Assembly: GCA_964036045.1 (NCBI GenBank)
Contig: OZ038390.1
Span: forward strand, 36,022,974-36,086,973
From: Eutreptiella sp. 'Long Island Sound 2002'
Taxonomy: Eukaryota > Euglenozoa > Euglenophyceae > Eutreptiales > Eutreptiaceae
Reading direction: 5' to 3'
DNA: 64,000 nt
Part shown: positions 1-36,303 of the stretch, one piece after another
Layout: each line of letters opens with the position of its first letter
Numbering within the stretch: the stretch's first letter is position 1
Program-made: the position numbers and the translations under genes
The notes under the pieces: model-generated
What the model was told of the DNA's origin: nothing
Seen by the model: the letters and a program-made list of their open reading frames with translations, nothing else
Database searches by the model: none

Positions 1-16
1 GTGTTGTGGGAGGTTT

Positions 17-2158
17 TCACACCTGGTGACATGGACACATGCCTTGGCCCTCCTTCTTGGCGTCGTCCAGCACCAGGCCCAGCCTCCGCAGCCACACGAA
101 GTCCGTGACGGCCGCATACTCCCCCACCTGCCGCCACTCCACCACCTGGGCCACCCCCTCCGCCTCAGGGGCCACCCTTGCCACTCCCCCATACAACCCC
201 CTCCTCACCACCAAAATGGTGCCCGCCGGCACCTTCATCCCAACATGCCCTTGCAGGGTGGGCCAGGGCAGTGCCTCCCCATGGCACACCTTGGCCAAGG
301 GGCACTGATCGGGGTGGCCTGCGACCGCCCCCGCCTCCTCATTAGTGAGGGGGGCAATCACCTCCCTCCCAACCCCCCACCCCGACAACAAAAAATGCCC
401 GGTGGTTGTTCCCACCGGGAGCAAGCACTGAGCAGATTGCTCAATGCTGACCCCATTGGGGTCCACCACCACCTCCTCCTCCTCCCCCCCCTCCACCTCC
501 TCCCCCTCCTGGCATGGCACACAAAGGCCATCTTTGTGGGCGGTGCACAAAATCAGCCGATTGCATCCGTAGCAATTGGCTACCACCTTCCCCCTACACC
601 TAACCGCCCCATCACACTGGACTGTCCTGGCCACCCGGCCACCAGGTGCCCCCAGCTGGGGCCTCTTAATGGACTGGGTCACGTGCAGGTTGGGGAATCG
701 AAGATTTTCCCCCTGGGTAAGCTCAATGGCAAAAAATGCCATGAGGCGGGGGTGGGACACCCCCGTTACAGTGGGGGAGGCCTTGGGAATCCCCGACCCC
801 CTGTGGACATCAAGGGCATTAAAAAAAAAGGCAGTGCCCCTCTTGAATGGCACAGCCCTCTCCACCCAAGGGTCAGGGAACCCCGAACTGCTGGAGGGCA
901 CAAAAAGAAAATGTGACCCATCCTCCTCCTCATGATTATGGGTTAGCATAATAAGGCAATTGACAATCAATGTGCCTTCAGGAATGGTGTAGGGGGGGGC
1001 GTCGCGATGGAGGTGCTGGGGGGTGTGGTCATAGCTCGAAATTTCGGCCATGTCAAGGATGGTGCAGCTCCATCCAACCCCCCCCACCACAGTCTTCTTC
1101 GCCGTCTCAAGCACACGATCTGCCACCCTTTTGAGGACTGGCAGATCATGGAGCTTGTGGGGGTTGTGCCTGTGGTGGTTGGCACCCCCATAGTTGCCGT
1201 ACAATGTACGGCGGGTCCCAGAATCTTGGGGCCTGCCGACAATGGGGGGGTTCTCATTGAAAATGGGTGCCTTCTCTGAGAGAGGCACCCTATCCAAATC
1301 ATCCAAAAGACTTTGGAGCTGCACAGCACTCAAAAAATCGTGCTCCAGGAGGTGGTTGACCACCAGCTTCCCCCCCACCGTGAGCACAAGGTCATTGGGG
1401 TCCCTATTAAAGGCCCCCAAGGGCTCGGCGGCAACCACCTCCTCCGCCTCCCCAATAAGGGGGTGTGTTGCCCCAAATGGAAAAAGAATCACCCCCTGCC
1501 CCGAAACAATGTTGGGAGTGGTGACCCCATACCACTCACGCTCCCACTCCCTTGTGGGGCAAAGGGAGTGCATGGGGAGCTTGTTTTCGGGGTCGTCAGT
1601 GCAGACCCGGCGGGTGTTGTGGGTGAGGGGTTGGGGGAACCAACCATCCGACTGCCCCTTCCCCTTACCCTGTCGGATCCTTACCTTCTGGACACTAATC
1701 ATGAGGGGGTTGTGGGGCTTCTCCTTCCTCCCCCCAGCCCCCACCCCCCCCGCATCCTCCTCCTCCTCCTCCACTTCCTCCACTTCCTCCTCCTCCTGAC
1801 CCACATAGAGGGTCGTCTTCGTCCCCGCACCCTTCTCGGCATGGGCGGTGACGGACTCCACCACCGCGTCCACATCGTCCGGATGAAGCTGGATCAAAAA
1901 TCCAGCAACCCCTGGATTTACCTCTAGCAACTCGAAGATGTAGTTGCTGAGAACCAGGGGGTCTCGGTCGTCCGCCATGAAGGGGGACTTATGGACAAGG
2001 AGTCCAAAGTCCACACCATGTTCAAAGCGGGTCGCCACAGGGCGCCTCACATTGGCATCACCCATCGTAAACCCCTCAGGACCGCCAAGGCGACGGACCC
2101 CAAGGAGCTTTTGATGGTGCTCGCACCAAGCGTGGGCAGCAGCAAGGGCCATTATCAA
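17..2158 (-). CDS. Putative 2-oxoglutarate/Fe(II)-dependent oxygenase with C-terminal zinc cluster, 713 aa
   Basis: The ORF is single-exon and complete, starting MIMALAAAHAW and ending PCHQV. The middle shows what looks like a double-stranded beta-helix iron site: H384-R-D386, then H452 (DVHRG) and R471 (SHPRLM). The 66-residue gap from HxD to the distal His is usual for 2OG oxygenases; the 19-residue gap from His to Arg is longer than the common ~10-14. A Glu-rich run (about residues 121-136), encoded by a CTC/TCC microsatellite, precedes it. From about residue 515 a Cys/His cluster (CDGAVRC, NCYGC, LCTAH, LCVPC) could bind zinc. The family is inferred from these motifs alone; substrate and pathway are unknown. 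A truncated copy lies just upstream at 2436-3866, and a GCGATAAC array lies between the two. Whether it is a host gene or cargo of a repeat is open. Confidence 0.6.
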   Translation of the reverse strand: MIMALAAAHAWCEHHQKLLGVRRLGGPEGFTMGDANVRRPVATRFEHGVDFGLLVHKSPFMADDRDPLVLSNYIFELLEVNPGVAGFLIQLHPDDVDAVVESVTAHAEKGAGTKTTLYVGQEEEEVEEVEEEEEDAGGVGAGGRKEKPHNPLMISVQKVRIRQGKGKGQSDGWFPQPLTHNTRRVCTDDPENKLPMHSLCPTREWEREWYGVTTPNIVSGQGVILFPFGATHPLIGEAEEVVAAEPLGAFNRDPNDLVLTVGGKLVVNHLLEHDFLSAVQLQSLLDDLDRVPLSEKAPIFNENPPIVGRPQDSGTRRTLYGNYGGANHHRHNPHKLHDLPVLKRVADRVLETAKKTVVGGVGWSCTILDMAEISSYDHTPQHLHRDAPPYTIPEGTLIVNCLIMLTHNHEEEDGSHFLFVPSSSSGFPDPWVERAVPFKRGTAFFFNALDVHRGSGIPKASPTVTGVSHPRLMAFFAIELTQGENLRFPNLHVTQSIKRPQLGAPGGRVARTVQCDGAVRCRGKVVANCYGCNRLILCTAHKDGLCVPCQEGEEVEGGEEEEVVVDPNGVSIEQSAQCLLPVGTTTGHFLLSGWGVGREVIAPLTNEEAGAVAGHPDQCPLAKVCHGEALPWPTLQGHVGMKVPAGTILVVRRGLYGGVARVAPEAEGVAQVVEWRQVGEYAAVTDFVWLRRLGLVLDDAKKEGQGMCPCHQV

Positions 2159-2211
2159 AGAATACGAAGGCTTTGAGAGCTAAAGCGAAAAGGGGAAACA
2201 TAAAATGAAGC

Positions 2212-2362
2212 GCGATAACCCACGCGATAACCCACGCGATAACTAGTTATCGCGCGATAACCCCCGCGATAACCCCCGCGATAACTAGGTTATCGCGCGA
2301 TAACCCACGCGATAACTAGTGCTCTAACCCCGTTCTAACCCCGCGATAACTAGTTAGAGCAC
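2212..2362. repeat. Ordered array of GCGATAAC motifs with palindromes (copy 1)
   Basis: Nine direct GCGATAAC motifs start at 2212, 2224, 2236, 2254, 2266, 2278, 2297, 2309 and 2343, and two inverted ones (GTTATCGC) lie at 2246 and 2289. Spacing is 12, 12, 18, 12, 12, 19, 12 bp, so the set reads as repeated triplets, each third motif forming the palindrome GCGATAACTAGTTATCGC or a close variant. The array ends in a separate 10-bp inverted repeat, GTGCTCTAAC / GTTAGAGCAC. It lies about 55 bp 5' of the oxygenase start codon, so a regulatory or replication-site role is possible but unproven. Confidence 0.85.
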
Positions 2363-2435
2363 ACAAAGATCAAATCGCAAAAAGTGCAAAACGGGCAATA
2401 TCGAGCAAACAATACATGGAAGGCACATTGTTGCA

Positions 2436-3866
2436 TCATAGTGCACCCATGTAACATGTGAAATTCCGGGTTCCAACCATATTAACAACACCCAAAATTG
2501 GGGGGGTTCCGCACCACGCCCTAGAACGCTGCATCCCAAAGGACCAACCCTTAAAACAATTTTTGAGCCTCCTCTTGTAAGGGTCAGGGAACCCCGAACT
2601 GCTGGAGGGCACAAAAAGAAAATGTGACCCATCCTCCTCCTCATGATTATGGGTTAGCATAATAAGGCAATTGACAATCAATGTGCCTTCAGGAATGGTG
2701 TAGGGGGGGGCGTCGCGATGGAGGTGCTGGGGGGTGTGGTCATAGCTCGAAATTTCGGCCATGTCAAGGATGGTGCAGCTCCATCCAACCCCCCCCACCA
2801 CAGTCTTCTTCGCCGTCTCAAGCACACGATCTGCCACCCTTTTGAGGACTGGCAGATCATGGAGCTTGTGGGGGTTGTGCCTGTGGTGGTTGGCACCCCC
2901 ATAGTTGCCATACAATGTACGGCGGGTCCCAGAATCTTGGGGCCTGCCGACAATGGGGGGGTTCTCATTGAAAATGGGTGCCTTCTCTGAGAGAGGCACC
3001 CTATCCAAATCATCCAAAAGACTTTGGAGCTGCACATCACTCAAAAAATCGTGCTCCAGGAGGTGGTTGACCACCAGCTTCCCCCCCACCGTGAGCACAA
3101 GGTCATTGGGGTCCCTATTAAAGGCCCCCAAGGGCTCGGCGGCAACCACCTCCTCCGCCTCCCCAATAAGGGGGGGTGTTGCCCCAAATGGAAAAAGAAT
3201 CACCCCCTGCCCCGAAACAATGTTGGGAGTGGTGACCCCATACCACTCACGCTCCCACTCCCTTGTGGGGCAAAGGGAGTGCATGGGGAGCTTGTTTTCG
3301 GGGTCGTCGGTGCAGACCCGGCGGGTGTTGTGGGTGAGGGGTTGGGGGAACCAACCATCCGACTGCCCCTTCCCCTTACCCGGTCGGATCCTTACCTTCT
3401 GGACACTAATCATGAGGGGGTTGTGGGGCTTCTCCTTCCTCCCCCCAGCCCCCACCCCCCCCGCATCCTCCTCCTCCTCCTCCACTTCCTCCTCCTCCTC
3501 CTCCTGACCCACATAGAGGGTCGTCTTCGTCCCCGCACCCTTCTCGGCATGGGCGGTGACGGACTCCACCACCGCGTCCACATCGTCCGGATGAAGCTGG
3601 ATCAAAAATCCAGCAACCCCTGGATTTACCTCTAGCAACTCGAAGATGTAGTTGCTGAGAACCAGGGGGTCTCGCTTGTCCGCCATGAAGGGGGACTTAT
3701 GGACAAGGAGTCCAAAGTCCACACCATGTTCAAAGCGGGTCGCCACAGGGCGCCTCACATTGGCATCACCCATCGTAAACCCCTCAGGACCGCCAAGGCG
3801 ACGGACCCCAAGGAGCTTTTGATGGTGCTCGCACCAAGCGTGGGCAGCAGCAAGGGCCATTATCAA
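2436..3866 (-). pseudogene. Truncated tandem copy of the putative oxygenase gene
   Basis: The first ~440 residues are almost identical to the neighbouring 713-aa protein, apart from the length of the Glu run and a few substitutions. Just after the HRD motif and the SSSSGFPDP segment the reading frame enters unrelated sequence (YKRRLKNCFKG...) and stops at 476 aa. The distal iron-binding His, the 2OG-binding Arg and the Cys/His zinc cluster are all missing, so the encoded protein should not be an active oxygenase. The cause is visible: the duplicated block starts inside the coding region. The upstream GCGATAAC array is duplicated with it. Confidence 0.75.
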
Positions 3867-3917
3867 AGAATATGAAAGCTTTGAGAGCTAAAGCGAAAAG
3901 GGGAAACATAAAATGAA

Positions 3918-4072
3918 GCGCGGTAACCCACGCGATAACCCACGCGATAACTAGGTTATCGCGCGATAACCCCCGCGATAACCCCCGCGATAACTAGGTT
4001 ATCGCGCGATAACCCACGCGATAACTAGTGCTCTAACCCCGTTCTAACCCCGCGATAACTAGTTAGAGCACA
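3918..4072. repeat. GCGATAAC array (copy 2)
   Basis: Duplicate of the array at 2212-2362, 5' of the truncated oxygenase copy. The first motif is altered to GCGGTAAC and one palindrome carries an extra G (CTAGGTTATC). The spacing pattern and the terminal GTGCTCTAAC/GTTAGAGCAC inverted repeat are kept. Confidence 0.85.
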
Positions 4073-4247
4073 CAAAGATCAAATCGCAAAAAGTGCAAAA
4101 CGGGCAATATCGAGCAAACGAAACATGGAAGGCACATTGTTGCATCATAGTGCACCCATGTAACATGTGAAATTCCGGGTTCCAACCATATTAACAACAC
4201 CCAAAATTGGGGGGGTTCCGCACCACGCCCTAGAACGCTGCATCCCA

Positions 4248-5523
4248 TGGCACGGCCAAACAGAAAAAAAAAAGTGAAACGAACGACATCGACGTGGGGG
4301 ACATCGAAAGGCACAACACCCGTACTCCACCCCATTGAACAATCACATACATGTCTGTTGTTTGATCTGGAACACGATGAACGCGTTGTGCTTCAGTGTG
4401 GCCGCGCTCCCCCAACTGCCCAGGTGGCCCCCCTTGGCGAGCCACTGCTTGTGGCTATCCGGGAAAAGCGGTGCGGGCATAAAGAAAGGGCTGAGGTACA
4501 GGAGGACGCGTAGCTCGCGCAAAACGTGGGTTCCGGCCTCCAGAAGCGTGATGTCGGTTACGTGCGGAACGCGGAACACGCCTTGCACGGATATGCGACA
4601 CGAGTTATTCGAGTTCCAGAGGCACACCTAGAAGCGAACGCTTAGAACACGTAACACGCGTAACACGCGCGGCACACGGAGCACGAAAGCCAAGGTAGAG
4701 GCAACGGCACGATACGCTTCTCACATGGAAAACGGTGGAAATGAACAAAACGGATGCTTCCATGACGTCCGGCACGTTCGAAAACCCCCCGGAACAACAA
4801 AACTTTATGGATTCATTTTTGACGAACAAAAAACGTTGATTCCGTTCTGCGCGTGGTAGACAAAGGAATATTATCCCAAATGTGTTGGAAATTTTCCGAC
4901 AATTCAATCTCCTCAACGGACCAAGGTAACGTAGGAGTAGGGGCACCGTCACCAAGGGCATCGCACAAGGCAAACGCTGCTTGCTAGGCATCCCCATCCA
5001 ATACTTTTGGTAGGGAATTCAATCGCCAATGTAAAGCAAGCGCGACCAAGATAACATCCCGATATACATCGAATCGTGTTGATAGAACACCAACCTTGGA
5101 CATGTCAAATATTAGCCGGGACAAATTTCCCTGTCCATATACGGCTCCAGACCAGTGACCACCACCCTGGATAATATTGTCTTAAACCCTCGGGGGCTAT
5201 AGCAACCAGCGGGACCAAATCTTCCATAAATAACTTCCAGGCGTGGTCCAACGTCCCCTGATCACCAGAAAATAAATCCGACCATGAGTTGAAAGGGATG
5301 GCGTTGATCGCTGCCATTTGTAAATTCCAAATAAATTTCTTCTGAGATTTGTGAGGCAGGACGATCCGCCAACTGCCGGCGACAAAAAACAGTGCCGGCG
5401 ACAAGAGACGCACTCCAAGCCCGTCTTGTGCTGCAGAGGCGCCTTTGAGGCATGGGGCGAAGGCATTGGACTGAGGCATGGGACCAGAAAATCAGAAGCC
5501 ATTGGATTGCGGCATGGGCCCAG
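4248..5523. other. No supported gene
   Basis: Nothing recognisable. Two open stretches on the minus strand (4605-4997 and 5105-5479) have a protein-like composition, for instance GWWSLVWSRIWTGKFVPANI near 5110, but no family could be recognised and no intact gene can be built. They may be decayed coding DNA. Confidence 0.4.
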
Positions 5524-6822: not shown

Positions 6823-6873
6823 TTGAATATTGGGACCGAGCTAGTGGGGGAAGGAACATCGTCGAGGGGACTT

Positions 6874-7211
6874 CAACGACAAATGAGGTACGCATTGGAA
6901 AGTGGATGAGAGCGGCTCAAAAGGGGCTCAAAATGAGCTGTATTCATCCGTTTGGGCATCACAACTGGACTAGAATCATTTTTGGAAAACCATGGTTTTG
7001 ACCCGCTTTTGTGGTCCCAAATTGGTGGATTTTCAAGGCCCTTTCGGCCTTGAAAGGGGCCAAAATTGGTCAACATGGGCTCAAAATGTGCTCATTCCAC
7101 TTGTTTGTGGACCCCGAAAGTCCAAAAGTACCTTTGGAAAAACACATTTTTGACCCATTTTTGACCCATTTTTGGTCGCAAAACAACCCATTTTCGAAGG
7201 CATTTTGTGAG
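6874..7211 (+). repeat. Satellite S1, two degenerate units
   Basis: Diverged copies of the ~160-bp unit that fills 8166-9240: the blocks GGGCTCAAAATG, ACTTGTTTGTG, AAAAACACATTTTTGACCCA and TTTTCGAAGGCATTTTGTGA recur in order. The tract is cut at 7211 by the element with 251-bp terminal repeats. Confidence 0.75.
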
Positions 7212-10263: not shown

Positions 10264-10483
10264 GAAGCTTTTGGGGGGCCCATGGCTCGGGCTAGATGGG
10301 CCCAGTGGCCACTACGTGGGTCCCCATGGGCGCCCAAGTACCCGTATTGTCACGGAATGATCACCCAAACCCATTCCAAGGGCAACGGAAGGGCTTCGGA
10401 AATAGTTGAAATGTGAAAATTCTATTGCCTTTGGCAAGTCCACCTCGTAGAGAATCTACCCCAAGCAACGCACGCACAAAATA
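10264..10483. other. Spacer with satellite S2 fragment
   Basis: Holds AAATTCTATTGCCTTTGGCA...AGAGAATCTACCCCAAGCAA (about 10418-10470), the reverse complement of a variant block seen in S2 at 14330-14370 and 14870-14920. No gene. Confidence 0.6.
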
Positions 10484-10696
10484 GGAAAAAAAGACATAAA
10501 TACGGCCTAAAACATGCTTTACATAGCTTGGATGGTCATTTTAGGTGATCATGGTATCAGAAAACTAAGCTTCGAAAACTTCAATTTTTGAGCTGCCGAG
10601 GGTGAAAAACTGCACAAGCAGGTTGTGTACCCATCCCTTGGGAGACCCCCCCCCCCCCCCAACCTAATACCCAAAAAGGGTGAAAAACACACAAAT
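10484..10696 (-). repeat. Satellite S2 unit, interrupted at its 3' side
   Basis: One unit in reverse orientation relative to 14.1-15.4 kb: AATACGGCCTAAAACATGC, GGTGATCATGGTATCAG, a C run and AATACCCAAAAAGGGTG. It stops at ...CACACAAAT and continues after the 1,774-bp insertion at AAATACGGCC. Confidence 0.85.
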
Positions 10697-10712
10697 GTAA
10701 CTACGAAGCCAA
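10697..10712 (+). repeat. Left terminal inverted repeat, 16 bp
   Basis: GTAACTACGAAGCCAA, an exact reverse complement of 12455-12470. Preceded by AAAT, the probable 4-bp target duplication. Confidence 0.9.
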
Positions 10713-10924
10713 CCCCAGATACTGTACATTCGCCAACTCCTGGTCAACTCCATGTCGAGAGCATTCAACTTGCTTGTACTTGTGCACTGTGTTGTTGCTA
10801 CGCCTTGTGCATGAAACGTGAGGAACTATTGATATTTTACAGCTTTTGGTTGCGTTGCTTTGTTGTTATGATGCAATATGTGGGTTTTTTGGGTCGAAGC
10901 CAACTTTTTGGAAGCCAAGTCAAA

Positions 10925-11056
10925 GTTGGCGCGCCAACTTGGCAGGTGGCGCGCGCCAACTCAAGAGTTGGCGCGCCAACTGCCAAGCTGGCGCGCCAAC
11001 TTGGCGCGCCAACTCTTGAGTTGGCGCGCGCCAACACCGGTTTTGGCGCGCGCCAA
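10925..11056. repeat. Left palindrome array: seven GGCGCGCC/GGCGCGCGCC sites at 21-bp phasing
   Basis: Cores start at 10928 (8 bp), 10948 (10 bp), 10970 (8), 10990 (8), 11003 (8), 11023 (10) and 11045 (10). Most are flanked by TT/AA to give TTGGCGCGCCAA. Centre-to-centre spacing is 21, 21, 20, 13, 21 and 22 bp, about two helical turns, which would place the sites on one face of the DNA. The array sits 70 bp upstream of the gene start, so it may also be part of its promoter. Confidence 0.92.
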
Positions 11057-11126
11057 GTGCCCCATTCTTCCTCTTCTTTTGCACCCTTTATGCATTCCCT
11101 TTCCCTTCTAGGCATTTCACGTTATC

Positions 11127-11927
11127 ATGCCTCCAAAGCAACCCAAGAAGGGCAAGGGGAAGAAGGTGACAGTCACCGACCCCACGTCTGCCCCAGCCCC
11201 AGCCCCCGCTGCACCACCTAACCCCGAGGTGCAGCCGGTGGTCGATGCCCACATCGCCAACGTGGGCTCCGAGCACTTCCCCGGGGGCTATTTTCCCATC
11301 CCCTACACCCTCACCTCCCTGGACGCCGAATCCTTCCCCCAGCTCCCCCCCCTCCGCGAACCCCTGGAGGCCGCCCTCTTCGGCAAGTGGGACCAGCCGG
11401 GCAATCCCCACTTGGTCTGGCGAATTGACGCCACCCGTGTTAACTTCGCCCTGACCAGGGGGGTTCTTAGCAGGTTCTGCTGTGCCGTGATGGGCCGGTA
11501 CCCCACGACGGTCGCGGTCGAGTTGAAGCTTCCTCAAGTCACCCTTGAGGCCTTCAACAAGACCCTGAAGCTGTGCACTGCTGCAGCGTCAAAAGAGTTC
11601 GTTAACGTTCTCGACCTGCAGGAGATGCCGCCTCAGCGTCTCGACCCCGAGGAGCAGTGGCTGTGGGTGGATCCAGTCAAAAAAAGTGGCTGGACGCACC
11701 GCACGGCCACTGACGCCGTCGTGCGGTACCAGACGGTGAAGGTGCAGGCGTGGGATGCAGTAGCTCCCACGGAGTTCTCCACCAACCGTCGCCTGCGCAC
11801 CCACATCCCCGACATCACCCACCCCACCCTCTACGGCAAATTTTCGGTTTGGGAGTCGTCGTGGACGAAGCAAAGGGGGTACATAGAGAATAAGGGGGTC
11901 TTCGTCCAGGCTGAACAAGGCATGTGA
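11127..11927 (+). CDS. Protein of unknown family carried by the TIR element, 266 aa
   Basis: An intact ORF starting ATGCCTCCAAAG with a Lys/Pro-rich basic N terminus (MPPKQPKKGKGKK) that could be a nuclear localisation or DNA-contact tail, then a Pro/Ala linker to about residue 35. The rest (about 45-266) looks like a folded domain rich in Trp and aromatic residues (LVWRID, WLWVDPVKKSGWTHR, FSVWESSWTK). I see no DDE/DDD, tyrosine-recombinase, serine-recombinase, HUH, helicase or zinc-finger signature, and I do not recognise the family. The flanking palindrome arrays suggest a site-specific DNA-binding protein acting on its own element; this is inference. C-rich codon use and an unbroken frame argue that it is a real gene. 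Confidence 0.7.
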   Translation: MPPKQPKKGKGKKVTVTDPTSAPAPAPAAPPNPEVQPVVDAHIANVGSEHFPGGYFPIPYTLTSLDAESFPQLPPLREPLEAALFGKWDQPGNPHLVWRIDATRVNFALTRGVLSRFCCAVMGRYPTTVAVELKLPQVTLEAFNKTLKLCTAAASKEFVNVLDLQEMPPQRLDPEEQWLWVDPVKKSGWTHRTATDAVVRYQTVKVQAWDAVAPTEFSTNRRLRTHIPDITHPTLYGKFSVWESSWTKQRGYIENKGVFVQAEQGM

Positions 11928-12110
11928 CCTCTATATATGATTTATATGATTGATTTGATAGCTTCTTGCACATTCGCAGTCTTTTGCACATTAATCAAAA
12001 AAAGATGGAACAATGCTTTCTTCGTGCCAAGTGTGCAAGGGCAGGTGAGGGACGGAATTTCCAGTGACAACAATGGTATGCAAGTCGATGGTTTGATCGG
12101 TGGGGGGACA

Positions 12111-12250
12111 TTTGGCGCGCGCCAAGTTGCAAGTTGGCGCGCCAAGTCCGGACTTGGCGCGCGCCAACTTCCCAGTTGGCGCGCGCCAAATCCGGACTTG
12201 GCGCGCCAACTTGCGACTTGGCGCGCCAACTTGTGAATTTGCGCGAGCCC
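12111..12250. repeat. Right palindrome array: six intact and one decayed site at 21-bp phasing
   Basis: Cores start at 12114 (10 bp), 12136 (8), 12156 (10), 12178 (10), 12200 (8) and 12220 (8), with a degenerate TTGCGCGAGCCC near 12239. Spacing is 21, 21, 22, 21, 20 and ~20 bp. The innermost centre is 352 bp from the right end, against 353 bp for the left array, so the arrays are mirror-placed even though the DNA around them is not otherwise inverted-repeated. Confidence 0.92.
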
Positions 12251-12454
12251 AGGCCCGGGAAGCCAACTTTGGGACTTTTGTACCGTGTAGGAGTGTTTTC
12301 AGCACGAGAGGGGCATGAAACCCGGGTTTTTTCAGGGTAAGAAGTTTCCATTTACACCAAAAAGGAGGAAAAAGTCCCTAGGTAGCCAGTGTAACAACAT
12401 AATAGACACCCGCCATGATTTGGCTGCATTCCGAAGCAAGTTGGCGAATGTCTC

Positions 12455-12470
12455 TTGGCTTCGTAGTTAC
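12455..12470 (-). repeat. Right terminal inverted repeat, 16 bp
   Basis: TTGGCTTCGTAGTTAC, exact inverse of 10697-10712, followed by AAAT and the resumed satellite unit. Confidence 0.9.
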
Positions 12471-12885
12471 AAATACGGCCTAAAACATGCTTTACGTAGC
12501 TTGGATGGATATTTTAGGTGATCACGGTATCAGTAAAATAAGCTTCGAAAACTTCGATTTTTAAGTTGCCTAGGGTTAAAAATTGCATAAGATGGTTGTG
12601 TACCCATCCCTTGGGAGCCCCCCCCCCCCCCGACCTAATCCCTAAACATTGAACTGAGTGTGGTGGTGACCATGCGCCTGTGACACGGGGGTGTATGCGA
12701 GCCCAGTTTCAGTTGCCGTCCCCAAATAGGGTGTAAAACACGTAAATACGGCCTAAAACATGCTTTACATACCTTGGATAGTCATTTTAGGTGATCACGA
12801 TATCAAAAAAATAAGTTACGAAAACTTTGACTTTTGAGGTGTAAAAAATTGCATTAGGTTGTGTACCGGCCCATTCACTAGGCCA
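12471..12885 (-). repeat. Satellite S2, two units in reverse orientation
   Basis: Unit starts AATACGGCCTAAAACATGC at 12472 and 12753. The second copy carries the uninterrupted CACGTAAATACGGCC that serves as the empty site for the 1,774-bp insertion. Between them, 12655-12730 resembles CCATACGCCTGTGACACAGGGG sequence found near 39130 and 40620. Confidence 0.8.
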
Positions 12886-16894: not shown

Positions 16895-17232
16895 CACTGT
16901 TGCGCATTGATGCTTTCTGTGTGTGTGTGCGGTGCATGAGTTGAACGACATAATTCAGGTAAGCTTAGTGAAGAGACGAAAGGCGGACTAGGTAAGAGAA
17001 GGGGCGCCGACGGTCACAGCATAGAGCGACAGCCGGAACCCACATGACGGGAATTGTGGTGCAGGTAGACTATGCGGTGCAGCCTGTCAATGTATGTATA
17101 TTCTTCCCGCGAGCAGTTGTGGTGTCGGGGCCAGGGTGCTTTCCTTGAACGCTGTGTTTTTCTGCACCTTCTCTCGTACCAGTCTCATGATCATCTGAGG
17201 AGTCTTTTCACGTTTTGTGCTTGCCCCTGCAG
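16895..17232 (+). repeat. 5' terminal direct repeat (pseudo-LTR) with intron-like signals
   Basis: Starts CACTGTTGCGCATTGATGC and ends exactly at TTGCCCCTGCAG. Inside is a donor-like CAG|GTAAGCTT at 16956-16966, and the repeat's own end is an acceptor-like TGCAG (AG at 17231-17232), which would give a 274-nt leader intron. ORF1's preferred start (17353) lies downstream of the acceptor. Confidence 0.8.
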
Positions 17233-17352
17233 CCTGTGGCTCTAACACGTGTGCGACTGAAGCACGTGTGCCTTCCATTGTTCCCCGTCATCTCAAACTC
17301 ATCGACTTCGGCATTATCTCCACGAATTTCCTCCAGATCCTCCTTCAGTGAC

Positions 17353-19332
17353 ATGACCTCACTTCCTCCCGACCAGCTTGCGAAGATTATTGGTGATGCA
17401 ACCGCCCATGCAGTGCGATCTCTTATGTGTCCGCAAGGGCAAATTGGGTCGACGCAGGGGCAGCAGATGCAGGTGCAGCCCCAACATCACAAATCCGACA
17501 AGAGGAAAAAACGCATCAAGAATGCTCACAAGGGCAAACCGGGCCCGTCTGCACAGGGTCAGCAGTGGACGCATTCTACGGACGTGCTTCCCAGATTCGA
17601 CCTCACAGACGTGGATCATACAGATCCGGAGGCTCTGGGCAAGGCTGAGCACAAAATGGGGAATCCGTGCTACCTTTGCAGGAAATTTGGCCATCTCTCA
17701 GGAGTGCATTTTCCTACGTCGCATAAATGGTGTCAAGCAGATACAGTTCGATGGCATGCCAACAGAGAACACTGGCACTGTATACTGGCGGACCTTCGTT
17801 TGAAGCAGTTTTCCAAGTACCAGATTGCTGAACGTCGCTCTGTGGATGTATCAACATGGCCTCCGATGTCTGACCGTGAGTTTCTCGCCGCGGTTATGGA
17901 AGCGGCCACTGGTCTCCCGAGATGGGACGATGGGACAGACCCCAGGAGTACTTCCCCGAGGCCAATAAAGGACGCGCCCGCGGCTGAGTTCTTTCAGAAT
18001 ATGCTGGTACCAGGGCCTGCTCGTTCTCTGGGAAGTGCTAATCAGCAGCAACTTGCGCTGCCTGCGCCACCAGATCCAGCTTTTGCACTGCCAGCACCAC
18101 CAAGTACGCAAGCTAGTCACCCGGGTTTCCCTTTTCAGGCCGATCCCCCTGTTCGCAAGAGGCGAGGAGTGAAAGAGAAGCGGAATAAACGGGAACGCAC
18201 TGGCGATCCGGTCACAGAAGCCCTGGGAGCCTCTCCACAGGCTTTTGCGCAGATTGCGCTAGACCCGAAAGCCTCTGCACTACAACTGCCGTCATATAAA
18301 CCATCGTCAACACCTTCTTCGCTCTCTACAGCAGTGGTTGGTCTTCCTGCTCATGCCCTGAACATGCGTGTGCAAGACGCCGAAAATTCGCTGAAGACCC
18401 TGACCGAAGATCGAAAACATGTCTGGCAGCAGCTGGGACGTATTGATCGGTCGGTTTCTGACCTAAAACGGTCGGGGAACGTGTCACATAGTCTGATGGG
18501 ACAACTGTTGGTCAAAGTTGGGGGCGTCTCGCAGAACGAGGTCCAGCAGATGATGCAGGATGCCAGAGATGCGGCTCTCGCAGAGCTGCCGCCAAGTCTT
18601 GATCCCCAGATAGAGGAGCGACTCCGTCTGGCCTCGATTGAAGACGGGCCCGCAATCCCGACCATTGAGAACCTGCAGTCCAATGCCAGTGGGAGTGACA
18701 CGAATGTGACGCCGGGGAGACTCTCTGTCGCCTCTACGGATAGCTTCCTATCTGCAACGGGCTCCACGGATCTCATGGACGTCACAGTGGGACCAGGGTC
18801 GTCGACGGCGAATACTACGGTACCACAGAGAAAAGACGCATTGGGTTCCTGGACACTGGGATGGAAACCTGCCCAAGAGTGGAAGATGGTGGACATGGCG
18901 GCCCTGATGGAGTGCAGAGGTGCTCTGTCCAGCACTCCAGCCATACGGAGGAGAAATGAGGGTGTTCACGCGCTCAGCCATATGGGCGAAGGGCTTTTTA
19001 TGGTTACTCTGGCACCTACCCCTTCTGCAGATGCGACCAGCAGCCCAACTGCACGCACCTACCAAGTTGTGAAGGTACGCTCAGTGGGTCAAAGGCCAGC
19101 GGGGCACTTGGTGCTGGGACTCTCCAACCAGGTTCAACTCCAGAATGCGCTGGAGCCGGCAGTGGAGAGTACTGAGCCGTGCGGCTTTGATACGTGGGAG
19201 CTGAATGTATTCGATAAGATCTTCTTCTGGGAGGAGGCAGCCCGTCATGCTGCAGAGGAGTTGAATAATGGGAAACCTTGTAAGCGTCCATGTCTATCCG
19301 AAGGACCCTCTGGCACTACGGGGACACCATGA
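17353..19332 (+). CDS. ORF1 of the Penelope-like element, 659 aa
   Basis: I chose the ATG at 17353 (MTSLPPDQLAK) over the upstream ATG at 17215, because the latter lies before the acceptor-like end of the terminal repeat. A basic patch (about residues 45-65, KSDKRKKRIKNAHKGK) is followed by a Cys/His cluster (CYLCRKFGH...FPTSHKWC, about 106-125) that may form a zinc knuckle, then Pro/Ala-rich linkers, another basic stretch (RKRRGVKEKRNKRERTGD) and a probable coiled coil around 335-375. These traits suggest an RNA-binding ORF1 protein, but no named domain was recognised. It ends in ATGA, which overlaps the ORF2 start by four bases. Confidence 0.75.
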   Translation: MTSLPPDQLAKIIGDATAHAVRSLMCPQGQIGSTQGQQMQVQPQHHKSDKRKKRIKNAHKGKPGPSAQGQQWTHSTDVLPRFDLTDVDHTDPEALGKAEHKMGNPCYLCRKFGHLSGVHFPTSHKWCQADTVRWHANREHWHCILADLRLKQFSKYQIAERRSVDVSTWPPMSDREFLAAVMEAATGLPRWDDGTDPRSTSPRPIKDAPAAEFFQNMLVPGPARSLGSANQQQLALPAPPDPAFALPAPPSTQASHPGFPFQADPPVRKRRGVKEKRNKRERTGDPVTEALGASPQAFAQIALDPKASALQLPSYKPSSTPSSLSTAVVGLPAHALNMRVQDAENSLKTLTEDRKHVWQQLGRIDRSVSDLKRSGNVSHSLMGQLLVKVGGVSQNEVQQMMQDARDAALAELPPSLDPQIEERLRLASIEDGPAIPTIENLQSNASGSDTNVTPGRLSVASTDSFLSATGSTDLMDVTVGPGSSTANTTVPQRKDALGSWTLGWKPAQEWKMVDMAALMECRGALSSTPAIRRRNEGVHALSHMGEGLFMVTLAPTPSADATSSPTARTYQVVKVRSVGQRPAGHLVLGLSNQVQLQNALEPAVESTEPCGFDTWELNVFDKIFFWEEAARHAAEELNNGKPCKRPCLSEGPSGTTGTP

Positions 19333-22300
19333 CCACACGGTTGTCCACACTCGATCCTCAACTGCGTGACCTCCTCTTGGAACATGCTAGAGAGGATCTG
19401 CGGCGATCACAGACCATCACAGATTTGGAAACAGCGGCTGTCTTCCTGCGCGCCTCCATCTGTGGTACACGGTCGTGCGATTCTGAGTTTACTTCTGAGA
19501 TTGACGAACTGCTGAGCGAATCAGGAGAACGTACTCACCAGTCCATTGACAGTGGCAACGGAAGTACGAGTTCTAGCAATCCCTCTGCAGAATTTTGCTT
19601 AGAGGCTGATCCAATGCTTCCTGAAGATGAGTGTTTGGATCCACGCCCCTCAACCCTTTCCTCCTCCGGCGATGTCACGAGTGGCGAGTCTTTGCAGATG
19701 AAGGAGGGGGTCTGTGCCCCCACCCTGCAATTTCTACGTGGCATATGCTCTGTTGATTCATTTGCAAGCGCTCTGTCTAGGAACCGTTCGCTACGACCGC
19801 TGTGGGATGGTTTTACGGCCACCAACGGTATCAGGGAATGGGCTGAAGTCTCCGCGACGGACATCGAGCAGTTTTGCGAATTTAGTATACCACTTGTTGA
19901 AGCTATGAAGGCACACCTACCCCTTTGCTGTCGACTGACGGGGGGGGCGGAAGACTTCTTGCGTGATGTATTAGGCATTAGATGCATGCTTTTTGGCACA
20001 CCCTGGTCCTCAGGACTCCCAGAATTTGCGAGCGACATTCCTGAGTGCTTGTATTTTGATGGGATTTTCGACAGTAAGTATGCTTTGTTGGGTCCCACAC
20101 AGACCTTCTTTCTCAGGTCCGACGTGGCCCCCTTCGATTTTTCAGCTGAGATCGATAAATGTCTTGCTGATAGCAGTTTTAGAATGTGCGTGCTACACAA
20201 TCGGAAAGCGAATAGAGGCTGGAACGGACAGTTAGAACGCTGGGCTGTTAGTGGGCGTGCAGTACAGTTTGGTGCGCAGACAAGATTGAAAGTTCGCTGT
20301 TTTGATCAAACAGACACAGGACAAGAAAAATGGCTCTGGCTGGATGGTATTTGGGAATGGTGGCTGGTTGATGGGGGAGTGGGAGAAGTGGGCTCAGGCA
20401 TTGACGCCAAAGGTTTTGGCCTGGCAACTAAAGGCTTTATTAAGTCTTCGGGACCAGACTCCTGGTGCGGACCTTTGCCGGGGCTCTCAGGCCCAGACTC
20501 CCCCTTCCCCTCCAGACAGGAGATGTTAGATCAAGTGAACGAATTCTGGGCCGCGTGGGATGCAGAAGCCGACCGAAGGGCAAAACTTCTGAAATCCAGG
20601 TGCATACCGTGGGATCAGGTGGCAGAGTCCCTGCTGAGGAGTAACCGCCTGCTCAGGGATTGTCCAGATGTTAGGCTTCGTCGCATTGCAAGGCTTGCGC
20701 GGTTACCTCTTGATACCCCCCTGACGATTGCCGACACATGGATCTACGTGATGGTGGGACCTTTTCTGCCCTACGTAGGTCAGGTGGGATTTGTGCAGGG
20801 CACCAGAGCCCCTCTGGAGCGGTATGGGGAACATCTTTCGAGGGCTAAGTCCCTTCGGAATTTATTCCTCGGTACAAGGCACAGGCGGTTACGGTGCCAA
20901 CTCGGTTTTGGGAAGACACCCTCCCTTTCACGCGTGCTGGCCAGCATCGGTGGAGCAAAGGCCTCGATGCTCCTGATGCAGAAAGTAGACCCCCCCCGTG
21001 AGGCCTTTAATGTGGAGTCACATTTTGACAGCGTCCTCGCCCCTACACTCAACCAGATTGACCCTGCCAGAGGGTGGGGCATAGGTGAGCTCAGATGGAG
21101 ATGGAGTCTTCGGGACCAGACATCTTCAGAAGCGAAGACCCTTTCCCAGAGGACAAATGATGTACTCTGGAAGATTCGGAGTAACCAGGGTTCAGTGCTG
21201 GAGGTCGAACATCTGATCGAACTCCTTACCACCTCCCTTGGGAAGGTTCCAGGGCGCCCGTTTGATTCGTTTTTTCGCGCGGTGCAGGGCTTCGTCAAAA
21301 AGGCATGGGGAACAGAATTGCTACGACGCATTGTTGTCAGGGTCCCCACGTATCACAGAGGTACAATTAATTCCATTAAGACCAGTCTTCGTTCACATAT
21401 TGCACAACGAGCCCTGCCTGATTGTCTAAAAGCCTGGCTCAACCGTGCGCTGTCCGTCATGCCTCTTCAGGCAACAAAACTGAAGGATGCCATGCGGGGG
21501 GGTGCCTCCCTCCGCACAGTGCGGATGACAGCCGATGAGCTTACCAAGGGCATTGACTGTGGGGCCTTCTCTGCACTTCCGTTGCACGTAGGAGACCTAC
21601 AGAGGGCATGGGTTTTCACTGAGCCGCAGTCTGTTCAACAGGATGTAGTGCAGGCGGTTACGATGCAATTAAAACAGCGCGGTGGCAGGCTTTGTCGGTG
21701 CTCTTCCCTCATGACCTGTCACCCTGTTCTGCAGAATGACATTGGACATGTCCTGCTTCGTTCCAAGCCACAGTGGGAATGCCTGCTGGGCGAGGAAACC
21801 ATGAATGGTAATTCTAGACAGTGCCTGGTGCCCTCTCTGTCAGTTTTGGAGGAGCGGCTGAATATCTTTGAAGCTTCCCTGAAGCGTATGACAATACCTG
21901 ACAGACCACCAAAAATTTCCATCTCCCAACCTTCGGCGGCTCCCCCTTCTCTCTCCTCTTCCCCTCCCTCTCCCCTGCCTGAGGCTCAGATGCAGGCGAA
22001 GGTAACCCCGTCGACAGATGCGAAGCACGCCCTGCTTCAGCAGGAGGATATTACCCCGATTATCGACTGGGTCAGGGATATCTGTGCCAGGGATATCTCC
22101 ACCTGTGCGCTGGAGACACCTGCGCTCGAAGAGGCGCATGTGGACAACCTTTCCTCTCGCATTTGGGACCTGCGGTTTCGCACAGGGGTTTGGGATAAAC
22201 AACTGCACCGCATGTCAGGTGCATGTCGTGTTTTGGAAGAAGAAAGAGTTTTACAGGCATACCTGGGAGGTGACAGGTTTGTGCTGTGGGGGGTAGCAGA

Positions 22301-24203
22301 TTCAAAGCCATCAGCGCAAGCCGCAGTTGTTTTTGACACACTGCGGTCAGCGCATGCACATGGCATTGTACAACCAGCCATTAGGCATAATACGTTACGC
22401 AAAGGGTTCAATGATCTGACGTGGGCCGGCGAGCACATCAATTCTGTGTATTCCAATCCAGAGCCGGAGCCCTGTGACGGGATCCAGGATGAAGACCCAG
22501 GTCCACGCCAGTTTCGTCCCAAACCACTGTTCGGGGCCCCATCCATTTTCTCCATTTTAAAGTGGAAAACAGTGGAACGAGGGTCAGAGGCGGTGGTGAA
22601 GTGGAGAGACATTGTTTCCTTTAAGTTCCACATTTTGCGGTCTTATGCCCGACTGATCAGTCGCTCTCTGCAGTTGGTGGTCAGCGAGGTGTACAGACTT
22701 CTCTTAACCCTGGGGACACCCTGCATGCTAGGCGTCCGCGATATTCTGGGGGCTGTGGGGCGCACTATGCCCGTTTGGTCCACAGTTTGCCCTGCTGAAG
22801 CAGACATGGCAGACATGTTCTGGCACATCCCCAAATGTGACGTGGTTCCTTCACTGAAGTCCATTTTTCAGCTGCTGGAGCGCGAAAAACGCGGATGCGT
22901 GAATTTTTTTGCCCTGCACAAATCAGGTGAAAAAACACTCGACCGCTTGGGGACAGCCAGTAGCTCTGAATTTAGGGTCATTACAAGACAGGAACTGATT
23001 GATTTTGTGGAGTGGGACCTGCATCATAACACAGCGTTGGTGCTGGGGTCCCTCATGCTGAAGCAGGGTGACAGGGGCGTCCCCATCGGGGGGCACCTCT
23101 CCGCCCAGCTGGCGGAATTGTGGGCGCTAGCCCAGGAACTCACTCTGGTTTTTGGTACAGAAAAAACTGTCCTTGAGACGCGGTGGCAGGAGGCGGTCAA
23201 TGCAGAATCGCCGCTACTGCCCAACAGTTTATGTGATGTGCAGCTGTCCATCACCGACCCTGTGGAAGTGTGCCATCCCTCCTCTCACCCTTCACACCTC
23301 CTGGGCAGGACCCTGGCCAGCACTGATCGAGCATCGGTGTCCCGGGGTATCATTCGAGAGGATAAGTTTGGGGGATGGTGGAGTCCCACCGACTCCTCTT
23401 TCGGGTTTTTGCAAGTGGCGGGCGTGCGGATTGATTTGCTTGTTACTTCGCTGTGGGATGGGGCCCCAGACGGACGGATGGGGACCATCACCGCGTGCGC
23501 TCCAGCCCGTGACCGAGCACATGTGAGGGATTTCTTTAGGGAAATAGACCCGATTACATGTGTCGCCAACGAGGCACAGAGGGGCTGGTGGGGGTGGGCT
23601 ACCCGTCGGGGTGATCCGGAACCCCCTGTCTCCTCCTCCCCGTGTGTTCTTCTGTCGCGTTTCAGAGATAATATATATATAGTGTTCATGAACGTCCTTC
23701 AAGAGTTGCTCCCTGTGGTCCGGCGCAGTGTGATGTGTTTTCTGCAGTGCCTTTACGGCGTTCCCTTGAAGTGGGAACCTGTAGAATTGACTGTGTCGTG
23801 GGGTGAGTGCTCTTGGCGAGTCCTCCCCCTGGGGTTTTCACTTACCAGGAAGGGCGTGGTCTGGGATTTACAGTCTGCAGGGGAGTCAGCGGAATGGCAG
23901 AGGTGGATCCCTGCTGGGTCCGCCAACGCGCGATTCACGCTGGCCTCCATGCTCCCTTCGCTGTTTCTTAAATCAGTTTGGTACGCTGCATCCACGGGTG
24001 ACCTGGTTGCCAATTTTCGCTCCCTGGTGTGGGGCGTAGGCTGGCGTGGGTACCCGAAGGAATGGTGGTTGCCCTGTTTAGAGCGATTCCTGCGCAAGTA
24101 CAACCTGATGGGGGTGATTTCCCTGGGGTCAGTGGCCACGTGGGTTCGGGAGGGCAAGCGAGCTCACATGCAGAGCTCGGGAGTGGACACTGTTGCGCAT
24201 TGA
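19329..24203 (+). CDS. ORF2: GIY-YIG endonuclease plus reverse transcriptase, 1,624 aa
   Basis: The start is placed at the ATG inside ATGA (19329); an in-frame ATG at 19290 is possible. The GIY-YIG domain is at about residues 470-580: IYVM (472), YVGQVG (482), an Arg in LERYGEHL, catalytic-type Glu E563 (NVESHF) and PTLN (~573). The RT palm is at about 1050-1480: motif A D1159 (EADMADMFWHIP), motif B near 1250 (RGVPIGGHLSAQLAE) and motif C D1447-N1448 (SRFRDNIYIVF), followed by a Gly-containing motif-D/E-like segment (LPLGFSLTRKGVVW). The protein should nick target DNA and copy element RNA there. The Asn in place of the second motif-C Asp is unusual; the first Asp, needed for metal binding, is present. 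The last four codons and the stop lie in the 3' terminal repeat. Confidence 0.8.
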   Translation: MTTRLSTLDPQLRDLLLEHAREDLRRSQTITDLETAAVFLRASICGTRSCDSEFTSEIDELLSESGERTHQSIDSGNGSTSSSNPSAEFCLEADPMLPEDECLDPRPSTLSSSGDVTSGESLQMKEGVCAPTLQFLRGICSVDSFASALSRNRSLRPLWDGFTATNGIREWAEVSATDIEQFCEFSIPLVEAMKAHLPLCCRLTGGAEDFLRDVLGIRCMLFGTPWSSGLPEFASDIPECLYFDGIFDSKYALLGPTQTFFLRSDVAPFDFSAEIDKCLADSSFRMCVLHNRKANRGWNGQLERWAVSGRAVQFGAQTRLKVRCFDQTDTGQEKWLWLDGIWEWWLVDGGVGEVGSGIDAKGFGLATKGFIKSSGPDSWCGPLPGLSGPDSPFPSRQEMLDQVNEFWAAWDAEADRRAKLLKSRCIPWDQVAESLLRSNRLLRDCPDVRLRRIARLARLPLDTPLTIADTWIYVMVGPFLPYVGQVGFVQGTRAPLERYGEHLSRAKSLRNLFLGTRHRRLRCQLGFGKTPSLSRVLASIGGAKASMLLMQKVDPPREAFNVESHFDSVLAPTLNQIDPARGWGIGELRWRWSLRDQTSSEAKTLSQRTNDVLWKIRSNQGSVLEVEHLIELLTTSLGKVPGRPFDSFFRAVQGFVKKAWGTELLRRIVVRVPTYHRGTINSIKTSLRSHIAQRALPDCLKAWLNRALSVMPLQATKLKDAMRGGASLRTVRMTADELTKGIDCGAFSALPLHVGDLQRAWVFTEPQSVQQDVVQAVTMQLKQRGGRLCRCSSLMTCHPVLQNDIGHVLLRSKPQWECLLGEETMNGNSRQCLVPSLSVLEERLNIFEASLKRMTIPDRPPKISISQPSAAPPSLSSSPPSPLPEAQMQAKVTPSTDAKHALLQQEDITPIIDWVRDICARDISTCALETPALEEAHVDNLSSRIWDLRFRTGVWDKQLHRMSGACRVLEEERVLQAYLGGDRFVLWGVADSKPSAQAAVVFDTLRSAHAHGIVQPAIRHNTLRKGFNDLTWAGEHINSVYSNPEPEPCDGIQDEDPGPRQFRPKPLFGAPSIFSILKWKTVERGSEAVVKWRDIVSFKFHILRSYARLISRSLQLVVSEVYRLLLTLGTPCMLGVRDILGAVGRTMPVWSTVCPAEADMADMFWHIPKCDVVPSLKSIFQLLEREKRGCVNFFALHKSGEKTLDRLGTASSSEFRVITRQELIDFVEWDLHHNTALVLGSLMLKQGDRGVPIGGHLSAQLAELWALAQELTLVFGTEKTVLETRWQEAVNAESPLLPNSLCDVQLSITDPVEVCHPSSHPSHLLGRTLASTDRASVSRGIIREDKFGGWWSPTDSSFGFLQVAGVRIDLLVTSLWDGAPDGRMGTITACAPARDRAHVRDFFREIDPITCVANEAQRGWWGWATRRGDPEPPVSSSPCVLLSRFRDNIYIVFMNVLQELLPVVRRSVMCFLQCLYGVPLKWEPVELTVSWGECSWRVLPLGFSLTRKGVVWDLQSAGESAEWQRWIPAGSANARFTLASMLPSLFLKSVWYAASTGDLVANFRSLVWGVGWRGYPKEWWLPCLERFLRKYNLMGVISLGSVATWVREGKRAHMQSSGVDTVAH

Positions 24204-34338: not shown

Positions 34339-35757
34339 GGCCCCTCGACGTCTCTAACAGGGGGGCGGCGACGACGTGGCTAGGCACGGTCCCCGGCTAG
34401 TGGAGCCCGGAGGTGGGCGCCAACTGGGCCACGATCGCGGCCGCCCTCAGCTGGTTCTACCCGGCCGGGCGGCTTGGTTCCTCCGGGCCCCCTGCCCGGG
34501 ATACGAGAGCGCAGCCAGCCCCACACATGGTGGCCGTGGCTGCTGCCGCTATGGATGGAGGAGGCCAGCTGCCCCCCGCCGCGCCGCTACCTCGACGGCC
34601 ACTTTTGCAACGTCTCATTTGGCTTGGGGCAGGTTTGGGCCCCCTCCCCCCAATCAGGCCCGTCTTCTTCAAGGGGGCTCCGGGCCGGAGTGGGGGAGGG
34701 GGACAACAGCGGCCACTGCCGGCCCTCGTACGCCCCTATCAGCAGGTCCTCCGACTCGGTCGGTCACCCAAAGTGATGGGGGCGGAAGTGGGCCTCAGAG
34801 TCCTAGTGTTCCAAAACTGAGCAGCAACAATAAGGCCAAGGCCTCCTCCCTGGGGCAAGGGCTCGATGGCATGGACCACAGGTGTTGCTGGTGCAACAGA
34901 TGCCAATTTGCGTGTGTGCATAACGCCAAACGTAAGCCAAACATGACATCAATCTTCGAAATTCTGCAGTCAAGACCAGGCGTACACGTCAATTGCAGGA
35001 GGTCGGAGGCAAGTCGGCGGTCGTAAGCCCAATTCAGTGGAGCCAACCCTCACAAATTGTGGTCCCATGTGAAGATTGACCAATAGCCCAGGCCGACTGG
35101 GGCCCACAAATACACCTCATCAGCGAGTTGCTGTTGTCCGTGGTCTTGAGGTCGCGCACTTTGTACAGGTCTAGTCCAGTGTACAGGTCCCGGCCTTGGT
35201 CTTGGACATGGCGGAAGCTCTGGCCCTGGCCGTGGCCCCGCTCTGCGCTGTAGATCCAGCCTTGGCTCTAGCCCTGGCCCTGGCCGTGGTCCTGGGCCTG
35301 GCCCTAGGAGGAGGGGGGGGGGTTTGGCTGTGGGGGGCAGTCAGACAGTATGACAGCCGCAGCACTGGCTCTGTGGGACTGACACCCCGGTAGGGCAATT
35401 CATCCTCCTCAGGGCTCCTTTTAACAACTCGGCACCACTGGGGATGGAAGGGGGGGTCCCACACCACCCACCCAACCTCCACCCAAAGATTGGGCCAAAT
35501 TTTCTTCCGGGCCTTCGGCAGATCAAAAATTTTCTCTGGCACCTTTGGTTAGTTCAGACCAAAAATTTTCTTCGGCGCCTTTATTGCCTCTAAAAACTCA
35601 GCACCACTGGGGGAGGCAGGGGGGCTCGACCCACCCACCCAGCCCCCCTGGACCCCTCCCCCCCCCTTAAAAGGAGCCATGCTCCTCCTCCCTCCTACGT
35701 GTCGTGTGCGTTTGTGTGTGTGTGTGTGTGTGTTGATGTGTCAACATGTGCTTGCAG
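34339..35757. other. Intronic GC-rich DNA and CCTGGC repeats, no gene
   Basis: Overlapping frames of 100-216 codons at 34376-35026 all look composition-driven. 35205-35305 is a run of CTGGCC/CCTGGC-type hexamers. A (GT)n stretch at 35709-35731 precedes the acceptor. Confidence 0.5.
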
Positions 35758-36303
35758 ACAATTGTGGGAGGCACGATGCAGATTCGTGAGCCCATGCGGA
35801 ATCAGATGCTGACCATCATGTTCTGCGACATCGAGGGCTTCAGCTCCATCTGCGAGTACGCTGACACGGAGGCACTCACCAACGTCTGCAGCGAGTACTT
35901 CGAGATGGTGTGCAACCACATTGTGCGGCGCAACGGCACTATCGACAAGTTCATCGGGGACACTGTGATGGCGATGTGGAACGCCCCCAACCGCTGCGAC
36001 CACCAGGAGCGCGACGCCATCCACGCCGCGCTCGCGATGCAGACCACCATCTTCCGGCTGCACGACACGTGGAAGTCGCACGGGGACCCGAAGATCACGT
36101 TCCGCGTGGGCATTAACACCGGGCCGTGCCTCGTCGGCAACTTCGGGTGTAGCTACCGCGTGAACTACACCTGCTTCGGCGACCCCGTGAATGTGGCCTC
36201 CCGCCTCCAGCTGCTCAACAAGCACTTCGGCACCTACATCTGCGTGTCCGAGCGGACTGCTGCCGGTGCCCTCAACGACTTCTACTTCCGGCGCCTCGCC
36301 AAG
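35758..36303 (+). CDS. Adenylate cyclase, exon 2 (class III catalytic domain)
   Basis: 182 codons carrying nearly the whole catalytic core. Numbered on the assembled 826-aa product, the metal-binding Asp residues are D511 (FCDIEGF) and D555 (KFIGDTVMAMW), and the transition-state pair is N632 and R636 (GDPVNVASR). The base-selecting positions are K551 and T625 (NYTCFGD). Lys with Asp or Thr is the adenylate cyclase pattern (Thr as in cyanobacterial CyaC), whereas guanylate cyclases have Glu and Cys, so cAMP is the expected product. Like other class III enzymes it should work as a dimer on the cytosolic face. The exon ends RRLAK|GTTCAT in phase 0. Confidence 0.9.

Follow-up and report, generated by a model that had tools for sequence, protein, structure and literature searches.

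The element and its surroundings

The window, by which we mean the whole 64-kb stretch of DNA that was analysed, belongs to a genome of 2.28 Gb in 2,205 contigs, which its size and content mark as eukaryotic. The window contains a short transposable element with the following parts, given in window coordinates.

10696-12471: the whole element, a copy with an internal deletion that belongs to a large family of DNA transposons
10694..10695, no strand: left target-site duplication AA (2-bp duplication, in 20/21 copies)
10696..10712, + strand: left terminal inverted repeat TGTAACTACGAAGCCAA, perfect over 17 bp
10726..10738, + strand: second conserved terminal block ACATTCGCCAACT, left end, common to both ends
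10926..11056, no strand: left array A, made up of seven TTGGCGCG(CG)CCAA palindromes, two of them with one mismatch
11127..11927, + strand: 266-codon fusion frame joining the start of ORF1 to the end of the transposase, a product of the internal deletion
11838..11924, + strand: what is left of the transposase C-terminus, a stretch of 29 residues 100% identical to P0077
12112..12251, no strand: right array D, six palindromes and one decayed site
12439..12451, - strand: second conserved terminal block, right end
12455..12471, - strand: right terminal inverted repeat
12472..12473, no strand: right target-site duplication AA

An earlier note on this DNA had described 16-bp terminal repeats with a GTAAC terminus. 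Exact inverted copies are indeed present, but the perfect repeat measures 17 bp and begins with TGTAAC, and a T and an A lie outside GTAAC..GTTAC in 21/21 copies, the ends of which thus read TGTAAC..GTTACA. A 4-bp duplication AAAT was also considered and rejected, because these flanking T and A occur in every copy. The block ACATTCGCCAACT lies 31-43 bp inward of the left terminus and, on the right, 21-33 bp inward. The palindromes were all recovered at the centres given in the note, namely seven in array A (10931.5, 10952.5, 10973.5, 10993.5, 11006.5, 11027.5 and 11049.5, the sites at 10952.5 and 10993.5 each having one mismatch to the word) and six in array D (12118.5, 12139.5, 12160.5, 12182.5, 12203.5 and 12223.5), with a decayed site at about 12244. 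Five of the array A spacers measure 8 bp and one measures 1 bp. The exact word TTGGCGCG(CG)CCAA is found 11 times in the 64 kb, and 11/11 of these occurrences fall inside the element. When the window was modelled as a first-order Markov chain, 100 simulations yielded on average 0.01 exact words and never more than 1, and such a model of the element gave none in 2,000.

The 266-codon frame is not a gene of its own, since the deletion, which runs from within ORF1 up to the last 29 transposase residues, joins the start of one gene to the end of another. By tblastn, residues 1-236 of P0002 match positions 432-1139 of the element and residues 415-443 of P0077 match positions 1143-1229. Fusion frames of this kind are found repeatedly, cluster P0001 comprising 25 member sequences and cluster P0002 comprising 85, and the 266-residue product had no match in phage records. 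Repeats (aaatacggcctaaaacatgctttac...) flank the insertion at 10480-10570, 12472-12560 and 12740-12830 of the window, and the element therefore landed in another dispersed repeat.

Elsewhere in the window, a frame that resembles a retroelement and includes a chromodomain (Pfam Chromo, E 1.6e-9) occupies 56465-57505 on the - strand; next to it lies a frame of 1,141 codons that Pfam did not match (57930-61355, - strand). An adenylate/guanylate cyclase catalytic domain (E 2.5e-20) at 35737-36429 on the + strand perhaps belongs to a host gene, and two long overlapping frames of 713 and 1,639 codons, neither of which matched Pfam (17191-24203, + strand), are perhaps a retroelement.

Copies of the family in the genome

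The terminal 16-mer, which the first reading of this DNA had expected to be multicopy, was found with at most 1 mismatch at 671 + 644 = 1,315 places genome-wide, against 16 + 15 = 31 for the reversed pattern. The first 100 listed termini yielded 22 convergent neighbouring pairs less than 10 kb apart, all on contig 1, of which 20 were analysed; this sample leaves out two pairs, of 8.4 and about 10.0 kb, as well as every pair of greater size. Together with the window copy these make up the set of 21 copies, hereafter family 1. Twelve copies are long (6.3-7.5 kb) and nine are short (0.5-2.7 kb). Arrays at both ends are kept in 8/9 short copies, including the window copy, and this retention could often be due to chance; the ninth, L027, is 549 bp long and has a single array and no target duplication. 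One short copy only, L016, carries an internal array, and L019 is nested, one copy lying within another. Altogether, the number of termini, the common ends and the duplications support the view that family 1 is a mobile, multicopy DNA transposon.

The long copies carry three genes in one direction, in the order array A, ORF1, array B, ORF2, array C, transposase, array D. The arrays are thus not confined to the two ends, where they had been noticed in the window copy: long copies add two, before ORF2 and before the transposase. All four arrays are present in 10/12 long copies when up to 2 mismatches per site are allowed; L023 has no array B and L028 no array C. The genes were placed by tblastn and translation, and ORF2, which looks coiled-coil-like in its translations, was recognised by eye.

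The early part of the transposase lies in a different frame, followed by 444 open codons in 3/5 listed copies, and a small intron probably splits this early part. DGT, AD.K and GEGRH are present in those aligned transposases that cover them, and the alignment offers a guess at the D, D and E residues. Between the second D and the E, where the CMCT clade discussed below has C(2)C and H(3-4)H motifs, CWLC is present, and HRQVH occurs in P0077 and is absent from P0098 and from the family-2 transposase described below. Pfam returned no family for six proteins (E up to 10) and none for P0077 (E up to 1), at which thresholds a remote similarity is possible. The predicted transposase structure (pLDDT 41) was unusable and a sequence search of the PDB with the transposase profile returned nothing. 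In viral contigs P0077 had no match, and P0098 gave six pattern stretches, none of which was confirmed.

ORF1, which is open over 755 codons in L010, carries HRD, PGT and VIHRGAGGPGR, an order which we take to be that of Fe(II)/2-oxoglutarate oxygenases. The protein matched neither a Pfam family nor a solved oxygenase structure, and its structure prediction (pLDDT 29) was unusable. In the PDB, one weak match of P0070 (ORF1) to lambda-crystallin (E 0.24) and three weak matches of the ORF1 profile (two ribosomal proteins and one hydroxymethyltransferase, E 0.41-1.8) were judged to be due to chance.

Geometry and conservation of the arrays

Over the 21 copies, the edge-to-edge spacer measures 8 bp in 324 of the 343 neighbouring pairs (1 bp in 14, 10 bp in 4 and 6 bp in 1), irrespective of whether the sites are 12 or 14 bp long, and centre distances of mostly 20, 21 or 22 bp therefore result. 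The centre spacing of 20-22 bp reported in the earlier note is correct, but the 8-bp spacer is the tighter rule; likewise, the protein assembly on one DNA face that it proposed fits these distances and the 22-bp grid of family 3 described below, but the spacer is the stricter feature in family 1. Genome-wide, GCGCCAA-N8-TTGGCGC occurs at 6,511 places against 1 for the reversed control. Pooled spacers of N2-7 give 82 places (control 6), and the 419 places with pooled spacers of N9-20 are largely background, since the reversed control gives 652. The listed N9-20 places include 12-bp sites with 10-bp spacers, and thus a 22-bp step, as in L024. Arrays with 10-bp spacers lie at C1:128270585-128270777 (L024), C1:117999025, C1:197321015 and C1:199350991, with 12-bp sites where the letters were read.

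The centre of the outermost site is located 236 bp from the left end in 18/21 copies and 248-249 bp from the right end in 18/21. The innermost site varies over the 21 copies, from 279 to 356 bp on the left and from 198 to 355 bp on the right, so that the inner edges at 352-353 bp described in the note hold in the window copy and some others but are not conserved. Terminal arrays have 3-7 sites on the left and 1-6 on the right, fewer than the internal arrays, which mostly have 9.

As the note had proposed, sites are conserved over spacers. Pairwise differences for site, spacer and flank are.019,.089 and.030 in array A,.031,.057 and.083 in array B, and.019,.093 and.102 in array C. Sites are thus 1.8 to 5 times less variable among copies than spacers, whereas the flanks of array C vary about as much as its spacers, those of B vary more and those of A less. 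There are 79 distinct 8-bp spacers over the 21 copies, and 24 of the 26 spacers of L010 are distinct. Position 2 is T in 68/79 distinct spacers and position 7 is A in 54/79; the site is therefore rather ANTTGGCGCG(CG)CCAANT, with about 4 free bases between sites. Part of the regularity stems from duplicated three-site units, array B of L010 being 0.72 identical to itself at a lag of 64. The 446 sites contain 177 mismatches, of which 36 are CpG transitions, a count from which no conclusion on CpG decay is drawn because copies share mutations by descent.

Two related families with other words

A second family is represented at the left edge of the window by the following features.

17..2179, - strand: family-2 oxygenase-like gene, 720 codons stop to stop
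2211..2360 (approximate limits), no strand: family-2 left array, TTATCGCGCGATAA and GTTATCGCG half-sites
2539..4247, - strand: part of another family-2 copy, with its own array at about 3919-4070

Positions 1-4247 hold two family-2 copies, the terminal repeats of which end at 2538 and 4247, and the first appears to have inserted into the other. The oxygenase-like gene was scored at 62 places among 5,748 candidates, and the matches listed are all 99-100% identical and without stops. Its protein has an HxD..H pattern and matches PhyH at E=0.011, below the cut-off of that Pfam family, and 2OG-FeII_Oxy_3 at a sub-threshold E of 0.075-0.097; a PDB sequence search returned nothing.

A family-2 copy read from end to end in two adjacent pieces measures 7,145 bp, with TGGGATG..CATCCCA ends and a TG duplication. 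The duplication is 2 bp in both copies of which two ends were read, being AT in L047. The GTTATCGCG arrays of the 7,145-bp copy lie at 188-319, 2557-2711, 4886-5028 and about 6830-6890, which places one array ahead of every one of its three genes and a further one at the right end, with the word TTATCGCGCGATAA and the same layout as in family 1. The half-sites stand 12 and 18-19 bp apart with a higher period of 42-44 bp, and do not form a simple 21-bp ladder. The family-2 transposase is, by profile comparison, remotely homologous to that of family 1: against a profile built from 13 transposases, that of family 1 among them, hhalign gave a probability of 97 (E 2.5e-11, 22% identity), and DAT, GDGK and TEYRH align to DGT, AD.K and GEGRH.

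The family-3 transposase, P0096, is 50% identical to P0077 and has 99 matched stretches in the genome (82 of 6,850 candidates scored). Family 3 was read in three pieces of one copy, in which neither a left end nor a target duplication was seen. In these pieces a near-palindrome, TTTTGCGTGCGCAAAA, follows a 22-bp grid on both sides of the transposase; full sites alternate with half-sites, of which there are many. On the upstream side the autocorrelation has its peaks at lags of 22, 44 and 66, on the downstream side at 22, 65 and 43.

What could read the arrays

A symmetric site, a near-constant spacer of differing sequence, constrained sites and a constant outer site are the expected trace of cooperative assembly of a dimer or oligomer. 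We consider it reasonably probable that an oligomer encoded by the element assembles on the arrays and, in the manner of TnpA (Spm) or VANC (VANDAL), marks the promoters as well as both ends; we infer both the binder and its action. Dimers on adjacent sites would contact each other over the intervening 8 bp and form a filament that follows about one face of the DNA, a filament being proposed because the spacer is fixed and the sites are symmetric and constrained. By analogy with TnpA and VANC, the filament on the terminal arrays could help the ends to pair and bring the transposase to them, and that on arrays A, B and C could control three promoters or keep them open. The window copy, which has both terminal arrays and the terminal repeats, would be moved in trans.

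Since every family has a different word, the reader of the arrays is probably a product of the element itself, and ORF2 would be the best candidate, because by eye a coiled-coil-like frame precedes the transposase in all three families; no DNA-binding domain was recognised in the translations read by eye. On sequence grounds, this suggests that each of the three families encodes a protein recognising its own DNA word. The three words are observed, and protein and word have probably changed together.

Another hypothesis is a variant of this explanation with ORF1 as the effector: the CpG-bearing arrays would be an anti-silencing address recruiting the element's own Fe(II)/2-oxoglutarate oxygenase, which would oxidise methylcytosine so that promoters and ends stay active. 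We regard it as tentative and rather unlikely, and the role of the oxygenase as a rival or an addition, not as a finding. The HxD..H pattern and sub-threshold Pfam matches of family 2 and the ordered motifs of family-1 ORF1 point in its direction, as do the at least 2 CpG in each of the three family words and a CpG observed/expected ratio of 0.69 against 0.97 for GpC in the window. Moreover, TET/JBP oxygenases occur on fungal transposons (excerpts of PMC12730594), and in Arabidopsis VANC proteins bind arrays of motifs in non-coding parts of the elements that encode them and cause methylation to be lost (excerpts of PMC5735166). It is weakened by the failure of family-1 ORF1 to match Pfam or solved oxygenases and by its poor fold model, by the undetectable homology between the two oxygenase-like proteins (hhalign probability 0.65%), and by family 3, where no oxygenase was recognised in 1.3 kb upstream, a stretch that may lie outside the element.

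Three further alternatives were considered. The E2F consensus is TTTSSCGC, and the resemblance of TTGGCGC to the E2F half-site, together with the position of arrays ahead of genes, could mean that the element merely exploits a host regulator, for instance an E2F-like one giving S-phase expression. This we find improbable: the base outside TTGG is T in just 11/79 distinct spacers on one side and 16/79 on the other strand, which shows no preference for TTTGGCGC; the words of families 2 and 3 are unrelated; and the right-end array stands behind the last gene. The outer base and the other families' words thus disfavour E2F-type host sites. Of equally small probability is the idea that the arrays serve the ends only, the internal ones being end-sequence remnants copied inwards. 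In its favour, an internal array is kept in only 1/9 short copies (L016), but the internal arrays exceed the terminal ones in site number and lie at corresponding places in family 2. Least likely of all, the regular array could be a by-product of tandem repetition with functionless spacing. The duplicated units of array B and the differing number of sites among copies would fit, yet 8 bp are kept by spacers of unlike sequence, spacers are more variable than sites, and a 22-bp grid recurs with another word in a diverged family.

Coming back to the element-encoded oligomer, the boldest form of this reading, which we consider unlikely, is that of a group of TG..CA transposons with 2-bp duplications, each family bearing its own CpG-containing palindromic or near-palindromic word at promoters and ends, read by its own oligomer that pairs the ends and directs the element's own oxygenase to strip these arrays of methylation. 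If true, transposition and anti-silencing would run from one code. In any case, a single genome holds thousands of instances of a code with exact geometry, in which palindromes of 12 or 14 bp alternate with spacers of 8 bp and the outer site is constant. Together with the other words of related families, this makes it testable whether reader protein and word change jointly, and whether the same sites serve the pairing of ends, autoregulation and the escape from silencing. CACTA-type subterminal repeats are irregular, and the complex formed on them is poorly understood.

Comparison with known systems

CACTA/EnSpm elements (En/Spm, Tgmt*) resemble family 1 in having terminal repeats and subterminal arrays. 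According to excerpts of PMC2613891, an element-encoded protein of the TnpA type binds their subterminal motifs, which are family-specific, and the TnpA analogy covers the ends and suppression. Deletion copies are also known among these elements. However, these elements have CA..TG (CACTA) termini and a 3-bp duplication, whereas family 1 has TG..CA in 21/21 copies and 2 bp, and for these two reasons family 1 is not a CACTA member. It further differs by its exact-spacer palindromes, by its extra arrays before genes and by a transposase without Pfam match.

The VANDAL/VANC system of Arabidopsis shares with the families described here arrays of family-specific motifs in non-coding parts, with repeats gained and lost, and the VANC analogy extends to anti-silencing as well as to arrays in non-coding DNA; VANC21 has a motif of 9 bases arrayed in one orientation, whereas family 1 has palindromes with a fixed spacer (PMC5735166, in the parts consulted).

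The fungal transposons with TET/JBP genes (KDZ, EnSpm, ESTA, Plavaka and others; PMC12730594, in excerpts) combine a transposase with an oxygenase gene; family 2 has a transposase and an oxygenase-like gene, whose protein matches PhyH below threshold, and family-1 ORF1 has no match. The word 'subterminal' does not occur in the main text of that article. KDZ elements (Zisupton type) make 8-bp duplications, against 2 bp in family 1. The CMCT clade, with duplications of 2-5 bp, includes the value of family 1 in its range, but its termini are CA..TG 'in most cases' where those here are TG..CA, and only some members here have its H(3-4)H motif (same excerpts).

The literature searched, mostly open-access and including that on transposon oxygenases, showed no description of fixed-spacer subterminal palindrome arrays. 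Transposons with subterminal binding arrays are known; the fixed-spacer palindrome arrays appear to be a new form of these.
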